Notes under the pieces: generated by a model | Database searches by the model: none | What the model was told of the DNA's origin: nothing | Seen by the model: the letters and a program-made list of their open reading frames with translations, nothing else | Position numbers and translations under genes: made by a program | Shown here: positions 32,315-39,620 of the stretch, piece after piece | How positions within the stretch are numbered: position 1 is the stretch's first letter | How the letters are laid out: every line of letters begins with the position of its first letter | NCBI RefSeq assembly: GCF_014647455.2 | Contig: NZ_BMPF01000003.1 | Span: forward strand, 310,001 to 374,000 | Source: Halarchaeum grantii | Lineage (GTDB): Archaea > Halobacteriota > Halobacteria > Halobacteriales > Halobacteriaceae | Reading direction: 5' to 3' | DNA: 64,000 nucleotides

Positions 32315-33553
32315 CTACGCGAACAGCCCGGAGAGCGAGTCCGACATCACGGTGCGCAGGTGCATGCGGCGGTCGGCTTCGCTCAGGTAGTTCTCGAGGA
32401 CGACGGAGGCGTCGGCGGAGCCCTGCGCTTCGGCGACGGGCGTGAAGCGCTCGGCGACGTCGACGACGGCCTCGCCGTAGAGCGAGTACCAGAAGCGCCG
32501 GCCGTACTTCGGGGTCGGTGCCTCGCCGCGCACCGTCACGCCCGTGCGCTCGACGAGAGCGGCGAACCACCGACGGAGGGTGTCAACGTGGACGTGTCCC
32601 GCGTCGGCCGTCGCCGAGGGGAAGACGTAGCCCGTCCACCCGTCCCTCTCGGCGACGGCGTCGAGGCGCGCGTCGAGGACGTCCGCGCCCGCGAGCATCG
32701 ACACCGTGCCGGGGCCGTTCTTCCGGTCGCCGTCGCGGAAGTCGAGGTAGGGGTAGTCGTCCTCGTCGGGGTCGAGGACGACCTGTCGGACGTGGAGCGC
32801 GGCGAGTTCGGAGGGGCGCAACCCCCACCCGCAGAGGCCGACGACGAGGAGGCGTTCGCGGCGGTCCGCCGTCGCCCGCCAGAGCTCCGCGACGTCGTCC
32901 TCGGAGAGCGAGGGGTTGTCCCACTCGGGGACGTCGAGGCCGAGACGGGTCTCCATGCGGCGCATCGGGTTGTAGGCGATGTAGCCCGCGTCGACGAGTT
33001 CGCGGTAGAAGCGCCGGACGTCCTCGACGTACTTCCGGCGCGCGGCCGGGGTCTGGAGGGTGCGGTCGAGGACCTTAGACACGGTGAACGCGCGGTCGAT
33101 CTCCTCGGCGCGTCGGGACTCGTCGCGGAGGCCGTCGAGCAGGTCGGGACCGTGGAGGTCGCAGTAGAGCCGAACGTACTTCTTCAGGCGCGCGCGATAC
33201 GGGCGAATCGTCGTCTCCGGGTGGCCGCGATACCGGAGTTCGTCGAGGTGCGCGTCGAGGCGCTCGCGGGTGCGTTCGGCGGCCTCGCCCTCCGGAAGCC
33301 CCCAGTCGTAGCCGTCGTCGTCCGCGCCGTCGAGGACGTGCTCGCGGTAGAAGTCGGCGGGCGAGGCATCGAACTCGCGCTGGAGGTGCTTGACGAACCC
33401 CGGATACCGGCCGTTCAGCCACCGATAGGTGGGGGGTTCGGCGTCGGGACGGCGCTCGCAGTCGGGGTCGGCGCGCATCTCGGGGACGACGGTCTCGCGG
33501 AGGAAGGCGACGCAGTCCGCTTCGGCCATCGTCGCGTAACGTGAGTCACTCAT
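32315..33553 (-). CDS. Tyrosine recombinase/integrase-like protein
   Basis: A 412-aa protein. The N-terminal half is a helical SAM-like DNA-binding region (about 90-215; LRYRGHPETTIRPYRARLKKYVRL). The C-terminal catalytic domain has the first Arg in GLCGWGLRPSELAALHV, a likely Lys in GDRKNGPGT, and the tyrosine region VVLENYLSEADRR. The HxxR box is altered: KYGRRFWYSL stands where HxLRHTFA is usual, so activity is uncertain. ATG 33553 is 24 nt after CTTAGAAC. No attachment repeats or phage genes flank it. A perfect 16-bp inverted repeat lies about 80 nt upstream (33634-33673). Confidence 0.72.
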   Translation of the reverse strand: MSDSRYATMAEADCVAFLRETVVPEMRADPDCERRPDAEPPTYRWLNGRYPGFVKHLQREFDASPADFYREHVLDGADDDGYDWGLPEGEAAERTRERLDAHLDELRYRGHPETTIRPYRARLKKYVRLYCDLHGPDLLDGLRDESRRAEEIDRAFTVSKVLDRTLQTPAARRKYVEDVRRFYRELVDAGYIAYNPMRRMETRLGLDVPEWDNPSLSEDDVAELWRATADRRERLLVVGLCGWGLRPSELAALHVRQVVLDPDEDDYPYLDFRDGDRKNGPGTVSMLAGADVLDARLDAVAERDGWTGYVFPSATADAGHVHVDTLRRWFAALVERTGVTVRGEAPTPKYGRRFWYSLYGEAVVDVAERFTPVAEAQGSADASVVLENYLSEADRRMHLRTVMSDSLSGLFA

Positions 33554-33633
33554 AGCGCTCGCGGCGGGGGTGCGGTGTTCTAAGCCCGCCGGTTTCAGTG
33601 GGTAGAGCCAGACGGTCAGAGCACAAATAGGTT

Positions 33634-33673
33634 GTCTTGTGTGGTTGTCCGCTACCAGACAACCACACAAGAC
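33634..33673. repeat. Perfect 16-bp inverted repeat with 8-nt loop
   Basis: GTCTTGTGTGGTTGTC (33634-33649), loop CGCTACCA, then GACAACCACACAAGAC (33658-33673). It lies upstream of the recombinase-like gene in an AT-richer spacer. It could be a recombinase binding site, an operator or a hairpin terminator; no T-tract follows directly except TTTT at 33677-33680. Confidence 0.8.
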
Positions 33674-33829
33674 GCGTTTTCGACGCTGTACGGCATCGAA
33701 CGCATAAATCACATATCGCGATAGTAAATCGGGGCGCACGCGGGGCGGTCGAACGGGGACGCTATCGACCGGTCGAGAGGGAGAGCAGCGCCGCTACGGC
33801 GGTCGAGCGCGCGAAAAAAGGCGGGCGCG

Positions 33830-35406: not shown

Positions 35407-36075
35407 ATGGGAATACCCACCGAGCAACGCGAACGGCTGTCGAACCTCCACAGCGCCATCGTCAACGACGTGACCGACGAGATGGGCATCACGAACAACG
35501 TCATCCCGTGCACGCGGCTGGAGGCGCTCTGGAGTCGCGACCCCGTCATCGGGACGGCGCATCCGGCCCAGCGCGTCGAAGTCGGCTACGAGGAAGCGGG
35601 CGCGGACGACCCGCGCGACTCGGCGTTCTTCCAGTACCTCGAGGCCGCTGACGAGGGCGACTTCGTCGTGATGGCGTCACCGGACACGCAGGTCGGCCTC
35701 TGGGGCGAGCTACTGAGCACCATCGTCCAGGAGAACGGCGCGGTCGGCGCACTCATCGACGGCCCGACGCGCGACTCGCGGATGATCGAGGAGCACGAGT
35801 TCCCCGTGTGGGCGGGCGGCCACAGCGCCATCGAGTCGTTCGGCCGCGTGAGCTTCCGCGAGTGGGACGTCCCCGTCCAGGTCGAGGGCGTCACCATCCG
35901 ACCCGGCGACGTGGTCTTCGCGGACTACGAGTCCATCGCCGTCATCGACCCCGACGACGTCGCGGAGGTCATCGAGCGCGGCGAGGAGGCCCTCGACACC
36001 GAGAACGATGTCCGGCGCGACGTCCGCGACGGCGACAGCGTCTACGAGGTCTGGGAGCGCTATGGCACCCTGTAG
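35407..36075 (+). CDS. RraA-family protein (aldolase/decarboxylase type)
   Basis: A 222-aa protein with the RraA/4-hydroxy-4-methyl-2-oxoglutarate aldolase signature GLWGELLSTIVQENGAVGALIDGPTRDSRMI, where the G-x-x-x-L loop and the downstream R-D pair bind pyruvate and metal in the aldolase relatives. Length is usual. In a sugar-acid setting, RraA-like enzymes may cleave or decarboxylate a keto acid; the RNase E-inhibitor role of E. coli RraA is unlikely in an archaeon. It heads a plus-strand series with the enolase-type, SGNH and Gfo/Idh genes. Confidence 0.8.
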   Translation: MGIPTEQRERLSNLHSAIVNDVTDEMGITNNVIPCTRLEALWSRDPVIGTAHPAQRVEVGYEEAGADDPRDSAFFQYLEAADEGDFVVMASPDTQVGLWGELLSTIVQENGAVGALIDGPTRDSRMIEEHEFPVWAGGHSAIESFGRVSFREWDVPVQVEGVTIRPGDVVFADYESIAVIDPDDVAEVIERGEEALDTENDVRRDVRDGDSVYEVWERYGTL

Positions 36076-36135
36076 AAACACCCGGCGGGTTTCCGGTACT
36101 GCGTCGTTTATGCCCGGCGCCGACCGAGGTGGACC

Positions 36136-37326
36136 ATGGTAGCACGGAGCGACGTCCGCGACGTGGAGGTCACGGACGTCCAGACGACGCGCATCGGCAC
36201 CACCTTCGAGTGGACGCTCGTCCGGGTCTACACGGACGCGGGCGTCACCGGGACGGGCGAACTCGTGCTCGGGCCAGCGGCCGACGCGTACGTCGAGCAC
36301 GCGAAAGAGCTGCTCGTCGGGAAGAGCCCGCTCGATGTCGACGCGCGGATGACCGAGCTCTACGACGGGCTCTCCTATCTCGGCGGGATGAACGGCGTCG
36401 GCGTCACGGCGCTCTCGGGCATCGACGTCGCGCTCCACGACCTCGCCGGGAAGCTCCTCGAGGTGCCCGCCTACCAGTTGCTCGGCGGGAAGCACCGCGA
36501 CGCCGTCCGCGTCTACTGCGACGTCCACGCGGGCGCGCACCTCCACGACGCCGCCGAAAGCGGGGACGAGGGCACGTATCGCCCGGAAGCGTACGCGGAC
36601 GCCGCCGAAGCGGTCGTCGACGAAGGGTGGGACGCCGTGAAGTTCGACCTCGACAGCCCGGACAGGCACGTCATCGACCGGAAGAACAAGCACCTGAACG
36701 CGCGCGCTATCGACTACCGCGCGGAGATCGTCGAGACGGTCACCGACCGCGTCGGCGACCGGGCGGACGTCGCCTTCGACTGCCACTGGAGTTGGACGGC
36801 CGACACCGTTCGACGCCTCGCCGCCGCCGTCGAGGACGACGGCGTCTGGTGGCTCGAGGACGCCGTCCCGCCGGAGAACCACGACGTCCAGATGCGCGTC
36901 ACGCGCGACACGGACGTCACCATCGCGGCCGGCGAGAACGTCTACCGCGTCGAGGGCGCGCGCCGCCTCGTCGAGGAGCAGGGCGTCGACGTCATCCACC
37001 CGGACGTCCCGAAGAACGGCGGGATGCTGGAGACGAAGAAGATCGCGGACATGGCGAAGGCCTACTCCATTCCGCTCGCGCTCCACAACGTCGCCTCGCC
37101 CGTCGGAACGATGGCGTCCGCGCACGTCGGCGCCGCCGCCTCGAACTTCCTCGCGCTCGAGTACCACGCCCGCGACGTCCCGTGGTGGGGCGACGTCGTC
37201 GAGGAGGACGTCCTCGAACCGGGGCGCATCGAACTCCCGGACGCCCCCGGCCTCGGCGTCACGCTCGACCTCGACGTCGTCGCCGAGCACCTGTTGGAGG
37301 GCGAGAAACTGTTCGACGAGGCGTAG
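36136..37326 (+). CDS. Enolase-superfamily sugar-acid dehydratase/racemase (MR/MLE family), unknown substrate
   Basis: A 396-aa protein homologous to the XacD-like enzyme but clearly distinct. It has WDAVKFD, metal-ligand regions VAFDCHWSW, WWLEDAVPP and IAAGENVY, and the catalytic His in LALHNVASPVG with Asp in HPDVPKNGG: the His-Asp dyad of mandelate racemase and galactonate-type dehydratases. ATG 36136 follows CGTTTATG by about 28 nt. The stop codon sits inside the first of two near-identical hairpins (37311-37386). Substrate unknown; a hexonate, uronate-derived acid or second pentonate is possible. Confidence 0.8.
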   Translation: MVARSDVRDVEVTDVQTTRIGTTFEWTLVRVYTDAGVTGTGELVLGPAADAYVEHAKELLVGKSPLDVDARMTELYDGLSYLGGMNGVGVTALSGIDVALHDLAGKLLEVPAYQLLGGKHRDAVRVYCDVHAGAHLHDAAESGDEGTYRPEAYADAAEAVVDEGWDAVKFDLDSPDRHVIDRKNKHLNARAIDYRAEIVETVTDRVGDRADVAFDCHWSWTADTVRRLAAAVEDDGVWWLEDAVPPENHDVQMRVTRDTDVTIAAGENVYRVEGARRLVEEQGVDVIHPDVPKNGGMLETKKIADMAKAYSIPLALHNVASPVGTMASAHVGAAASNFLALEYHARDVPWWGDVVEEDVLEPGRIELPDAPGLGVTLDLDVVAEHLLEGEKLFDEA

Positions 37327-37337
37327 CCTCGTCGAGC
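37311..37337 (+). terminator. Hairpin 1 of a duplicated pair, spanning the stop codon
   Basis: Arms TCGACGAGGC (37313-37322) and GCCTCGTCGA (37326-37335) around the loop GTA; the stop codon TAG is 37324-37326. See the second copy at 37360-37386. An RNA 3'-end or processing role is inferred. Confidence 0.5.
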
Positions 37338-37359
37338 ACGCGGCGCGAAGCGACGCCCA

Positions 37360-37386
37360 GTTCGACGAAGCGTAGCTTCGTCGAGC
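37360..37386 (+). terminator. Hairpin 2 of a duplicated pair
   Basis: Arms TCGACGAAGC (37362-37371) and GCTTCGTCGA (37375-37384), loop GTA. It differs from hairpin 1 only by a G-to-A and a C-to-T change that face each other in the stem, so pairing is kept. Confidence 0.5.
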
Positions 37387-37429
37387 GGCGTCCGATAGTC
37401 TCATACGGACGTCACCCGAGTCGGTGCGT

Positions 37430-38446
37430 ATGGAGTCAGCGGAGTATCCGGTGTCGCTGCACAACGTCGCGGAGACCGTGCCGGCGGAGTGGGCCGACGG
37501 CGGCGAGCGCCTCTGTCGCGTCCCGGCGTCGGTCGGCGAGGAGTTGAACGAGATGGCGCGAACCCGCGTCCGGCATCCGACGGGGAGCGAGGTGCGCTTC
37601 GTTCCGGCGGACGACGAGACGACGATAGAGGTGACGCTCTCGGCGGCTGAGGAGACGCAGGTGCGGGTGTTCTGGGGCGTCTTCCAGCCGTGGGAGCCGA
37701 CGGCGATCGGCCCGGAGCCGGAGACGCTCTCGCTCTCGGTGCCGGAGCGACTCGCGGACCTCGCGGCGACGGGGGAGACGGGGCGGTTCGACCCGCGCGT
37801 GTGCCGGATTCGCTTCGAGCGCCGGACGGCCGCCGCGCTCCACGGCGTCAGCGGCGACTGCCGGCCGCCGCGCGACGACGAGCGCCCCGGAAAGCGCCAT
37901 CTCGCGTACGGGACTTCCATCACGGAGGGCGCGGCGGCGTCCGCGCTCCACACGGACTACGTTTCGCACGTCGCGCGCGAGAACGGCTACGACGCGCTGA
38001 ACCTCGGCTGCTCCGGCTCGGCGTACTGCGAGGCGGCGATGGCCGACCACGTCGCCGGGCGCGACGACTGGGACGTTGCGACGCTCGCGCTCTCCGTGAA
38101 CATGGCGAACACGGGCGGGTTCGAACCGGAGACCTTCCGCGAGCGCGCCGACTACTTCGTGAACACCGTCGCGGACGCGAACCCGGAGAAGCCCGTCGTC
38201 TGCATCACGCTCTTCCCGTATCACGACGACCTGACGGCGTCGGGGGACGCCGAGCACGCGGCGGCCTATCGGGCGGCGCTCCGCGAAATCGTCGCGGACG
38301 CCGACCGGGAGAACTGCCACGTCGTCGAGGGCCCGGAGCTCCTCGACCTCACGGGGCTCGGTGCGGACCTCCTGCATCCGGGCGACGCGGGGATGGCGGC
38401 CATCGGCGACGGACTGGCGGAGCGCCTCGACGCCGTCGTCGAGTGA
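37430..38446 (+). CDS. SGNH/GDSL hydrolase (probable carbohydrate esterase)
   Basis: A 338-aa protein. An N-terminal beta-domain (about 1-155) is followed by an SGNH hydrolase domain: Ser163 in YGTSITEG (block I), Gly in NLGCSGSA (block II), Asn in LSVNMANTG (block III) and the Asp-His pair in LGADLLHPGDAG (block V). It resembles the two-domain acyl-esterases found among hemicellulose genes. No signal peptide, so it would act in the cytoplasm on, for example, acetyl groups of imported oligosaccharides; substrate is inferred. ATG 37430 was preferred to GTG 37424. Confidence 0.8.
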   Translation: MESAEYPVSLHNVAETVPAEWADGGERLCRVPASVGEELNEMARTRVRHPTGSEVRFVPADDETTIEVTLSAAEETQVRVFWGVFQPWEPTAIGPEPETLSLSVPERLADLAATGETGRFDPRVCRIRFERRTAAALHGVSGDCRPPRDDERPGKRHLAYGTSITEGAAASALHTDYVSHVARENGYDALNLGCSGSAYCEAAMADHVAGRDDWDVATLALSVNMANTGGFEPETFRERADYFVNTVADANPEKPVVCITLFPYHDDLTASGDAEHAAAYRAALREIVADADRENCHVVEGPELLDLTGLGADLLHPGDAGMAAIGDGLAERLDAVVE

Positions 38447-38525
38447 GGGGCGGGACCGGGGCGCGTCGCCCCGCGACGACCACATTCCCGGACGGTTTAT
38501 GGTGACGGTTGTCTTGGACGGAGAC

Positions 38526-39620
38526 ATGGAGCCTGTACGAGTCGGGATTCTCGGCTGCGGAACCATCAGCGACGCCTACCTCGGGGCGAACGACCGCTTC
38601 GACGAGTACGACATCGTCGCGTGCACGGACCTCGATATGGAGCGCGCGGAGGCGACGGCCGCCGAGTACGGCATCGAGGCGCTGGAGAGCGAGGCGTTCG
38701 TCGAGTCGGACGTCGAGCTCGTCGTGAACCTGACGCCGCCGTCCGTCCACGAGGGGACCTGCGAGCGGATGTTGGCGGCGGGCAAGCACGTCTACGTGGA
38801 GAAGCCGCTCGCGGCGTCCGTCGAGGACGCGGCGGGCATCCGCGCGGCCGCAGACGACGCCGGCCTGCTCGTCGGGTCCGCACCGGACACGTTCCTCGGC
38901 GCGGGCCTCCAGACGTGCCGGCGCGTCATCGACGAGGGCCGCATCGGTGAGCCGGTGGGCGCGACGGCAATCTGGACGTCGCCCGGCCACGAGACGTGGC
39001 ACCCGAACCCCGACCTCTACTACAAGGAGGGCGGCGGGCCGCTCTTCGACATGGGCCCCTACTACGTGACGGCGCTCGTCACGCTGCTCGGCGCCGCCGA
39101 GCGCGTCACCGGGTCGGTCACGCGCGCACACGACACGCGCACCATCACGAGCGAGCCACGGGCCGGCGAGGAGATAGCCGTCGAGGTGCCGACGCACGAG
39201 TCGGGCGTGATCGACTTCGGCGACGGGACGGTGGCGAACGTCACGACGAGTTTCGACGCGCAGGACTCGACGCTCCCCGACCCCGCGTTCGAGATCTACG
39301 GCACGGAGGGGACGCTCGCGGTCCCGGACCCGAACCACTTCGAGGGGCCGGTGCGCGTCTCCGACGGCGACGGCTTCGAGACCGTCGAGATGGCACACGA
39401 CTACACGGCCGGCCGGGGCGCGGGCGTCGCGGACCTCGCGCGCGCCATCCGCGACGACGGGTGGACGCATCGGACGAGCGCCGACCTCGCGTATCACGTC
39501 CTCGAAATCCTCGACGGCGTCCGCGCGTCCGCCGAGCGGGGCGAGCACGTGACCGTGGAGAGCGCGCCCGAGCGCCCGGCGCCGCTCCCCGAGGCGTTCC
39601 CGGGCGACCGCGACGAGTGA
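38526..39620 (+). CDS. Gfo/Idh/MocA-family oxidoreductase
   Basis: A 364-aa protein with an N-terminal Rossmann motif (RVGILGCGTISDAYL), the family EKP signature (HVYVEKPLAAS) and the C-terminal substrate domain (GGGPLFDMGPYYVTALVTLLG, with Asp-x-x-x-Tyr/His region). It is NAD(P)-dependent and should oxidise or reduce a sugar or sugar derivative. Together with the ThuA and GH4 genes nearby it may belong to a 3-keto-sugar route; that is inference. ATG 38526 lies 24 nt after TTTATG. It is convergent with GH4 gene B. Confidence 0.85.
   Translation: MEPVRVGILGCGTISDAYLGANDRFDEYDIVACTDLDMERAEATAAEYGIEALESEAFVESDVELVVNLTPPSVHEGTCERMLAAGKHVYVEKPLAASVEDAAGIRAAADDAGLLVGSAPDTFLGAGLQTCRRVIDEGRIGEPVGATAIWTSPGHETWHPNPDLYYKEGGGPLFDMGPYYVTALVTLLGAAERVTGSVTRAHDTRTITSEPRAGEEIAVEVPTHESGVIDFGDGTVANVTTSFDAQDSTLPDPAFEIYGTEGTLAVPDPNHFEGPVRVSDGDGFETVEMAHDYTAGRGAGVADLARAIRDDGWTHRTSADLAYHVLEILDGVRASAERGEHVTVESAPERPAPLPEAFPGDRDE

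Follow-up and report, generated by a model that had tools for sequence, protein, structure and literature searches.

At the 3′ end of an enolase-superfamily gene of Halarchaeum grantii stand two hairpins that differ by a single base pair, and the question raised by this locus is what keeps the arms of such stems complementary while their sequence changes. Changes on both sides of a stem usually count as proof of a selected RNA structure; here they occur alongside signs that one arm is copied from the other at the DNA level. The two causes can be separated because the system offers natural arrays in numbers well above one hundred, pairs of close species, and a tight link with a single gene family. 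The DNA analysed, a stretch of 64,000 nucleotides, is called the window below, and the coordinates of its relevant features are collected in Table 1.

Table 1. Features of the gene-end array and of the two adjoining genes, in window coordinates.
Feature	Position	Strand	Description	Basis
Host gene	36136–37326	+	enolase-superfamily (MR_MLE) dehydratase-like, 396 aa, C-terminus ..KLFDEA-stop	ORF, PF13378 and PF02746
Repeat unit 1	37312–37360	+	49 nt, begins in codons FDEA	model R1 match, 59.8 bits, E 1.1e-12 (the unit is itself a member of the R1 training alignment)
Hairpin A1	37310–37338	+	10-bp perfect core 37313–37335, loop GTA, stop codon TAG 37324–37326	13 pairs in RNA fold
Hairpin B1	37342–37357	+	imperfect stem	RNA fold
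Repeat unit 2	37361–37413	+		model R1 match 37361–37390, 37.7 bits; end at 37413 from the fold
Hairpin A2	37360–37386	+	10-bp perfect core 37362–37384, loop GTA	
Hairpin B2	37387–37413	+		RNA fold
Downstream gene, GDSL-type lipase	37430–38446	+	begins 45 nt past hairpin A2	ORF, PF13472 and PF14606

The closest NCBIfam models of the host protein are galactonate/mannonate dehydratases, with scores below the cut-off. The gene is flanked by an RraA-like gene and by the GDSL-lipase gene, the ATG start of which was picked from the annotated orthologue of Halarchaeum sp. CBA1220, and genes for a Gfo/Idh dehydrogenase, a family-4 glycosidase, and a glucuronate isomerase lie in the surrounding stretch. 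On a 603-kb replicon of CBA1220, a protein 97.5% identical to that of the host gene is found with the same neighbours.

The first-pass annotation had described two perfect 10-bp stems with 3-nt loops, spaced by 49 nt, which differ only at two facing positions, the first of them enclosing the stop codon, and all of this agrees with the sequence: the copies read GAGGC-GTA-GCCTC and GAAGC-GTA-GCTTC, and are thus one base pair apart with GTA in both loops. The first copy lies in an inverted repeat (37310–37322/37326–37338) at the end of the gene. That annotation had A1 and A2 and overlooked the hairpins B1 and B2. The window hairpins are two units of a tandem repeat of about 50 nt, each consisting of a hairpin A, with the stop at its loop, and then a hairpin B. 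In unit 1, the final codons of the gene itself (FDEA-stop) serve as the 5′ arm of hairpin A, and their reverse complement serves as its 3′ arm; after hairpin B, the pattern begins again with a copy of the gene end. According to the aligned model, the B1 pairs span 37340–37356 and include one G-A mismatch.

It is the repeat that goes beyond chance, while the single hairpins do not. Lone hairpins of this size are not unusual by chance in the GC-rich window, stems of at least 10 pairs being found six times in the window vs zero to five times in eight dinucleotide shuffles. The 126-nt stretch 37300–37425, by comparison, has an RNA folding energy of −66.8 kcal/mol vs −48.39 (sd 3.66) for shuffled sequences (z −5.03, 0 of 200 as low), and its fold consists of the four hairpins A1, B1, A2, and B2 plus one weak 3-bp stem. 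The Rfam covariance models gave no match at E values up to 1 in the region 36000–39000, and no promoter- or terminator-like consensus was found at the array site.

The same architecture recurs in relatives. Two paralogues elsewhere in the same genome, with proteins 57 and 59% identical to that of the window, bear the array with the same 49-nt spacing. Of 108 distinct gene ends, taken from this genome, its relatives, and 79 haloarchaeal loci after a de-duplication rule had removed near-identical ends (such as L061 and L072), 41 carry TTYGAY followed by a second TTYGAY 46–60 nt on. A unit is laid out as hairpin A (TTYGAY, stop, RTCRA; about 24 nt), a short linker, hairpin B (about 16–25 nt), and a final G, after which the next TTYGAY begins. 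The loop of the first unit is GTAA, GTGA, or GTA in 27 of the 41 cases.

Pairing is preserved in this layout. The units were picked by their TTYGAY spacing and not by their pairing; 73 were collected in this way, and 68 were aligned after three had been dropped before alignment (two from L013, one from L025) and two duplicates removed. In the alignment, 91.0% of the cells are paired vs 74.6% after shuffling. Both sides have changed in 13 of the 17 pairs, the double-change cells amount to 195 vs 58 for the shuffled alignments, and the covariation score is 0.472 vs 0.175, a value that none of 500 shuffles reached and that falls to 0.039–0.086 for slid structures. The paired changes are strong in hairpin A and also in hairpin B, which is non-coding. 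The first-pass annotation had proposed to look for further paired changes in related strains, and these are amply present, also in the nearest relative found, CBA1220, where two adjacent pairs are altered together. As a separate observation, a recurrent variant of hairpin A has GA opposite GAN instead of GA/TC pairs (A2 rows, e.g., L054:4135–4185, L064:4138–4188, and L091:1201–1251), and could form tandem sheared G-A pairs in RNA.

The comparison with CBA1220 shows how such an array changes over a short distance. The two genes differ at 39 of 1191 coding positions, and the relative has five units vs two in the window. In its first hairpin, two adjacent pairs are changed and both are compensated, one of the changes altering the last amino acid from A to T. 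The middle three units are mutually identical, lack the stop, and match the window exactly over a 28-nt stretch of B1. The fifth and last unit combines a new 5′ arm with a window-type 3′ arm, which breaks two pairs.

Unpaired changes and relatives lacking the hairpins, both named in the first-pass annotation as findings that would speak against a structure kept by selection, are each encountered to some extent. The former are seen in the fifth unit of CBA1220, where the 5′ arm has changed over an unchanged 3′ arm. As for the latter, a quick tree of 104 proteins, from which four distant rows were left out, has the array on 52 gene ends and lacks it on the other 52. The array label changes 28 times on this tree vs 35.1 for shuffled labels (7 of 500 shuffles as low), so presence is only weakly clustered. 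The window gene belongs to a separate clade, in which the other five near members gave no model match, and two more relatives (82 and 71% identity) have no array by reading. Because these near relatives are array-less, the array was probably gained in Halarchaeum, the alternative being repeated loss elsewhere. Copy number, presence, and stem sequence thus turn over, and the arms stay mostly complementary.

The distribution is wide and is bound to one gene family. A covariance model built from the units gave matches with E ≤ 1e-7 in at least 173 of 391 sampled Halobacteria genomes and at least 53 of 86 genera; these counts are lower bounds, since at most 150 candidates were scored per genome in the whole-genome scans (at most 15 in the 391-genome scan) and an array at an oxidoreductase gene of the H. 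grantii genome itself was missed. The listed scan matches that had not been examined earlier, one at a contig edge being left out, comprise 103 loci, and an MR/ManD-like enolase-superfamily gene is present at 101 of them, 84 of which have the repeat at the stop by a crude rule. The two exceptions are L241, which is interrupted by the contig end, and L343, where the match lies downstream of another gene. Among the 79 haloarchaeal loci, a gene-end model match with E ≤ 1e-4 is found for 36, of which 27 belong to the training set, and all matches with E < 1e-3 in the window and these loci (616.5 kb) sit at the end of the family gene. The sampled genomes and the 79-locus set overlap (G103 and L110), and hence are not independent.

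We have also considered the possibility that such hairpins are a general feature of gene ends, and reject it. With genes called crudely from ORF length and acidic composition, a stem of at least 7 pairs with the stop in its loop is found at 4 of 302 other genes vs 21 of 78 family genes in the window and the 79 loci, and eight control positions gave one to three such stems per about 300 genes. In 464 kb of the H. grantii genome, with the same crude gene calls, 4 of 297 other genes have a comparable stop stem, the oxidoreductase array being among them. Recurrence of a gene's last 12 nt 30–130 nt downstream was seen for 0 of 297 and 1 of 298 other genes, 9 of 72 family ends, and 15 of 216 controls; this test is too strict, since not even the family is set apart from the controls by it. 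The core pattern TCGAGCTCG-gap-GGYGTTCGA has matches in 20 of 97 genomes, one to three in each, with coding and non-coding sites pooled. When the 73-nt array served as the query of a plasmid blastn search (E up to 10), the match to Halarchaeum CBA1220 had an E value of 8e-18, and the other matches listed had E ≥ 0.04.

The covariation can be examined for its cause through the intermediates between paired states. Over 236 units taken by the spacing rule, which include some chance pairs, G-U cells number 80 vs 89 A-C cells; the counts are 31 vs 58 in helix A (counted over 8 of its pairs) and 49 vs 31 in helix B. In addition, a simple rule flags an inverted loop in 3 of 122 non-first units. Template switching is reported to homogenise arms and invert spacers (PMC8604942) and to create and repair hairpins (PMC8794818), and the missing G-U excess together with the inverted loops fits arm copying at the DNA level. 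Such copying, by tandem duplication, gene conversion, and template switching, explains the covariation at least as well as selection on RNA. The slight preponderance of G-U over A-C in the B hairpins leans to RNA and counts against the DNA-copying reading. The stop triplet is kept in 97 and lost in 25 of the 122 non-first units; its retention might exceed what drift alone would leave, and homogenisation with the gene end would also produce it.

The first-pass annotation had taken the paired changes as a sign that the RNA structure is kept by selection. The changes themselves stand, and such selection is possible; covariation alone is no proof of it here, because G-U does not exceed A-C, a few loops are inverted, the last CBA1220 unit contains unpaired changes, the presence of the array is labile, and an array is found at an unrelated gene. 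A classical functional RNA, the stems of which are selected on the transcript as a terminator, 3′-end stabiliser, translation brake, or protein-binding site and restored by compensatory mutations, would account for the strong covariation in A and in non-coding B, for the preferred loops, for the upkeep of a G-U-leaning hairpin B, for the strong tie to one family, and for the presence of matches in at least 53 of the 86 sampled genera. The observations just listed are at odds with it, and we consider this explanation unlikely. A neutral or self-perpetuating DNA, in which slippage, gene conversion, and template switching sustain a palindromic tandem repeat without benefit to the host, agrees with the 28 weakly clustered label changes, the array-less half of the tree, and the loss of the stop in 25 units. 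Drift alone does not explain the very strong preference for one family, the spread over genera, or the scarcity of comparable stop hairpins at other genes (4 of 302), so that strict neutrality appears possible but on balance rather improbable.

The reading that we favour, with somewhat more confidence than doubt, is that of a REP/BIME-like tandem array of two-hairpin units of about 50 bp, fixed to the gene ends of a single haloarchaeal family, with upkeep at the DNA level and a probable role at the end of transcript or translation. It is based on the repeat architecture in relatives and at the two paralogues, on the pairing and paired changes in both hairpins, non-coding B included, and on the gene-family tie (101 of 103 loci, and all matches with E < 1e-3 at the gene end). 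It is further based on the five vs two units in CBA1220, with three identical units, paired first-unit changes, and mixed last arms, on the near-identical B stretch at the oxidoreductase gene, and on the inverted loops, the lack of a G-U excess, and the RNA fold z-score. The units would multiply through tandem duplication and gene conversion, arm complementarity would largely be upheld by template switching during replication, and other gene ends would be reached through ectopic recombination. More tentatively, the transcript may fold into a string of hairpins from the last codons on, which would slow the terminating ribosome and protect or set the mRNA 3′ end, and read-through into the next gene would thereby fall.

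In form and position, the array resembles REP/BIME elements, short palindromes that are arrayed near gene 3′ ends, but its first unit takes in the final codons of the host gene. The REPs of E. coli are described as palindromes of 14–40 nt that form stem-loops (PMC12306157), a range that contains the sizes of hairpins A and B. REPs are reported to be usually present in more than 100 copies per genome (PMC2817692), whereas four array loci, tied to one family, were found in the H. grantii genome. Some REPs are said to provide flanking ORFs with their stop codon (PMC3733652); unlike in REP/BIME elements, which lie outside genes and rarely overlap coding sequence, the first arm of the array is the host's own coding end, and the first unit begins 12 nt before the host stop, only the later units being extragenic. 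REPs are also described as tagged at one end with GTAG or CGTC (PMC3733652), whereas the present units begin with TTYGAY and have GTAG at the loop rather than at the foot. Because copy number, the first unit, and the foot differ in this manner, we do not file the array as a REP. Template-switch (quasipalindrome) hotspots share with it the homogenised arms and inverted spacers (PMC8604942, PMC8794818), but the array consists of regular tandem units of 46–60 nt at one gene family in many genera. Within the terms used and among the entries listed, no description of such a haloarchaeal array was found in the open PMC literature. The results point to a widespread gene-end element of Halobacteria, in which the signals ending transcription and translation are incompletely known.

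As to function, the first-pass annotation had suggested an influence on 3′-end formation or translation, and such a role is plausible. With a repeated hairpin that starts in the last codons, one would expect ribosomes to be slowed as they terminate and the 3′ end to be shielded or set. In E. coli, ribosome stalling is reported for REPs that lie within 15 nt of the stop codon (PMC12306157), and inverted repeats are reported to be enriched 50–80 bp after stop codons, archaea included (PMC13155455). For Haloferax volcanii, T stretches are reported at intergenic transcript ends, as is a single hairpin that, when tested, stopped 59% of transcripts (PMC7237163). Hairpin terminators, and the hairpin clusters reported for bacteria (PMC8355165), are similar in that hairpins occur at and after the stop codon, but the array hairpin begins inside the ORF, is not followed by a U-tract, and does not go along with fewer T tracts downstream. 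A canonical U-tract terminator, defined as a GC-rich hairpin with a U-tract behind it, is accordingly rejected, a terminator-like site being absent at the array. Two further candidates were compared, with five loci set aside for their marginal model scores. The array does not appear to substitute for a T-tract terminator, as 7 of 33 arrays vs 3 of 38 array-less ends have a T5 in the next 150 nt (p 0.17), with no significant difference and no rarity of T tracts after arrays. Nor does it appear to mark operon ends, the next gene being on the same strand in 21 and convergent in 9 cases vs 20 and 14 for array-less ends, again without a significant difference. Both results leave a terminator role unsupported and are compatible with effects on stability or translation.

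Similar arrays occur at other genes. In the H. grantii genome, where searches of limited sensitivity yielded four array loci and a further pattern match at C1:911026, the end of a zinc-type oxidoreductase gene (PF16884; tail EFDGS) bears the same kind of array, and the 28-nt B1 stretch recurs there with 2 differences. Its orthologues in three congeners have related gene-end hairpins, with tails EFDGA, EFDA, and ESDA; among further orthologue ends, 18 of 19 were readable at the true end and showed no such repeat by eye. A different possibility is a new class of haloarchaeal element that leaves its imprint where genes end: it would land at a 3′ end and use the host's last codons as the first stem arm, the reverse complement would be written by template switching, its own hairpin B and a fresh copy of the gene end would be added, and the growing array would retune the end of transcript or translation and could provide a new C-terminal tail. 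We regard this extended scenario as doubtful.

The hairpins could instead be sites of recombination or transposition, where a transposase of the Y1/RAYT type, or an integrase as at attC sites, recognises the single strand, with the units or the gene acting as mobile cassettes. The units at unrelated gene ends would fit, as would two Y1_Tnp matches in the H. grantii genome and the two predicted genes that in G029 (L161, G029:C4:233069–235387) separate two array units past the end of the family gene, as though they had been inserted into the array. However, those Y1_Tnp matches lie on contig C9 and the arrays on C2, C3, and C6. Y1_Tnp matches, with the RAYT subtype not distinguished, are found in 14 of 21 genomes, but there are none in G002, G008, G027, and G028, all of which bear arrays, and no unit stands 5′ of the gene among the model matches with E < 1e-3 at the 79 loci. 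A mobile site is thus very unlikely, and the anchored REP/BIME-like array remains the reading that we prefer.

Some additional gene ends were noted while reading the sequences. Most members of a 4Fe-4S protein family (Fer4_11) end in VFD or VFE plus acidic residues, and several of 30 ends show a similar layout; at L344–L373 (e.g., L352, L360, L367, and L370), the end of the 4Fe-4S gene seems to be copied downstream of hairpins, and in array-less genomes such as L353 the stop of the gene is overlapped by the next start codon. By a crude rule, a stem of at least 7 pairs is present at 6 of the 30 ends and the gene's own arm is strictly the best at 3 of these 6, an equivocal outcome, so the likeness comes mainly from reading. 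Another gene, ending in ..VLDSDER, has its stop inside a hairpin at L074:6427 and L068:7028, with stems that differ between the two Natrinema; at L074, it is followed downstream by a B-like hairpin and by another hairpin with DER-stop. Finally, a perfect 16-bp inverted repeat with an 8-nt loop lies at 33634–33673 of the window, in the 5′ portion of a minus-strand ORF that is integrase-like (32315–33739), and CBA1220 has an annotated integrase at the matching place.
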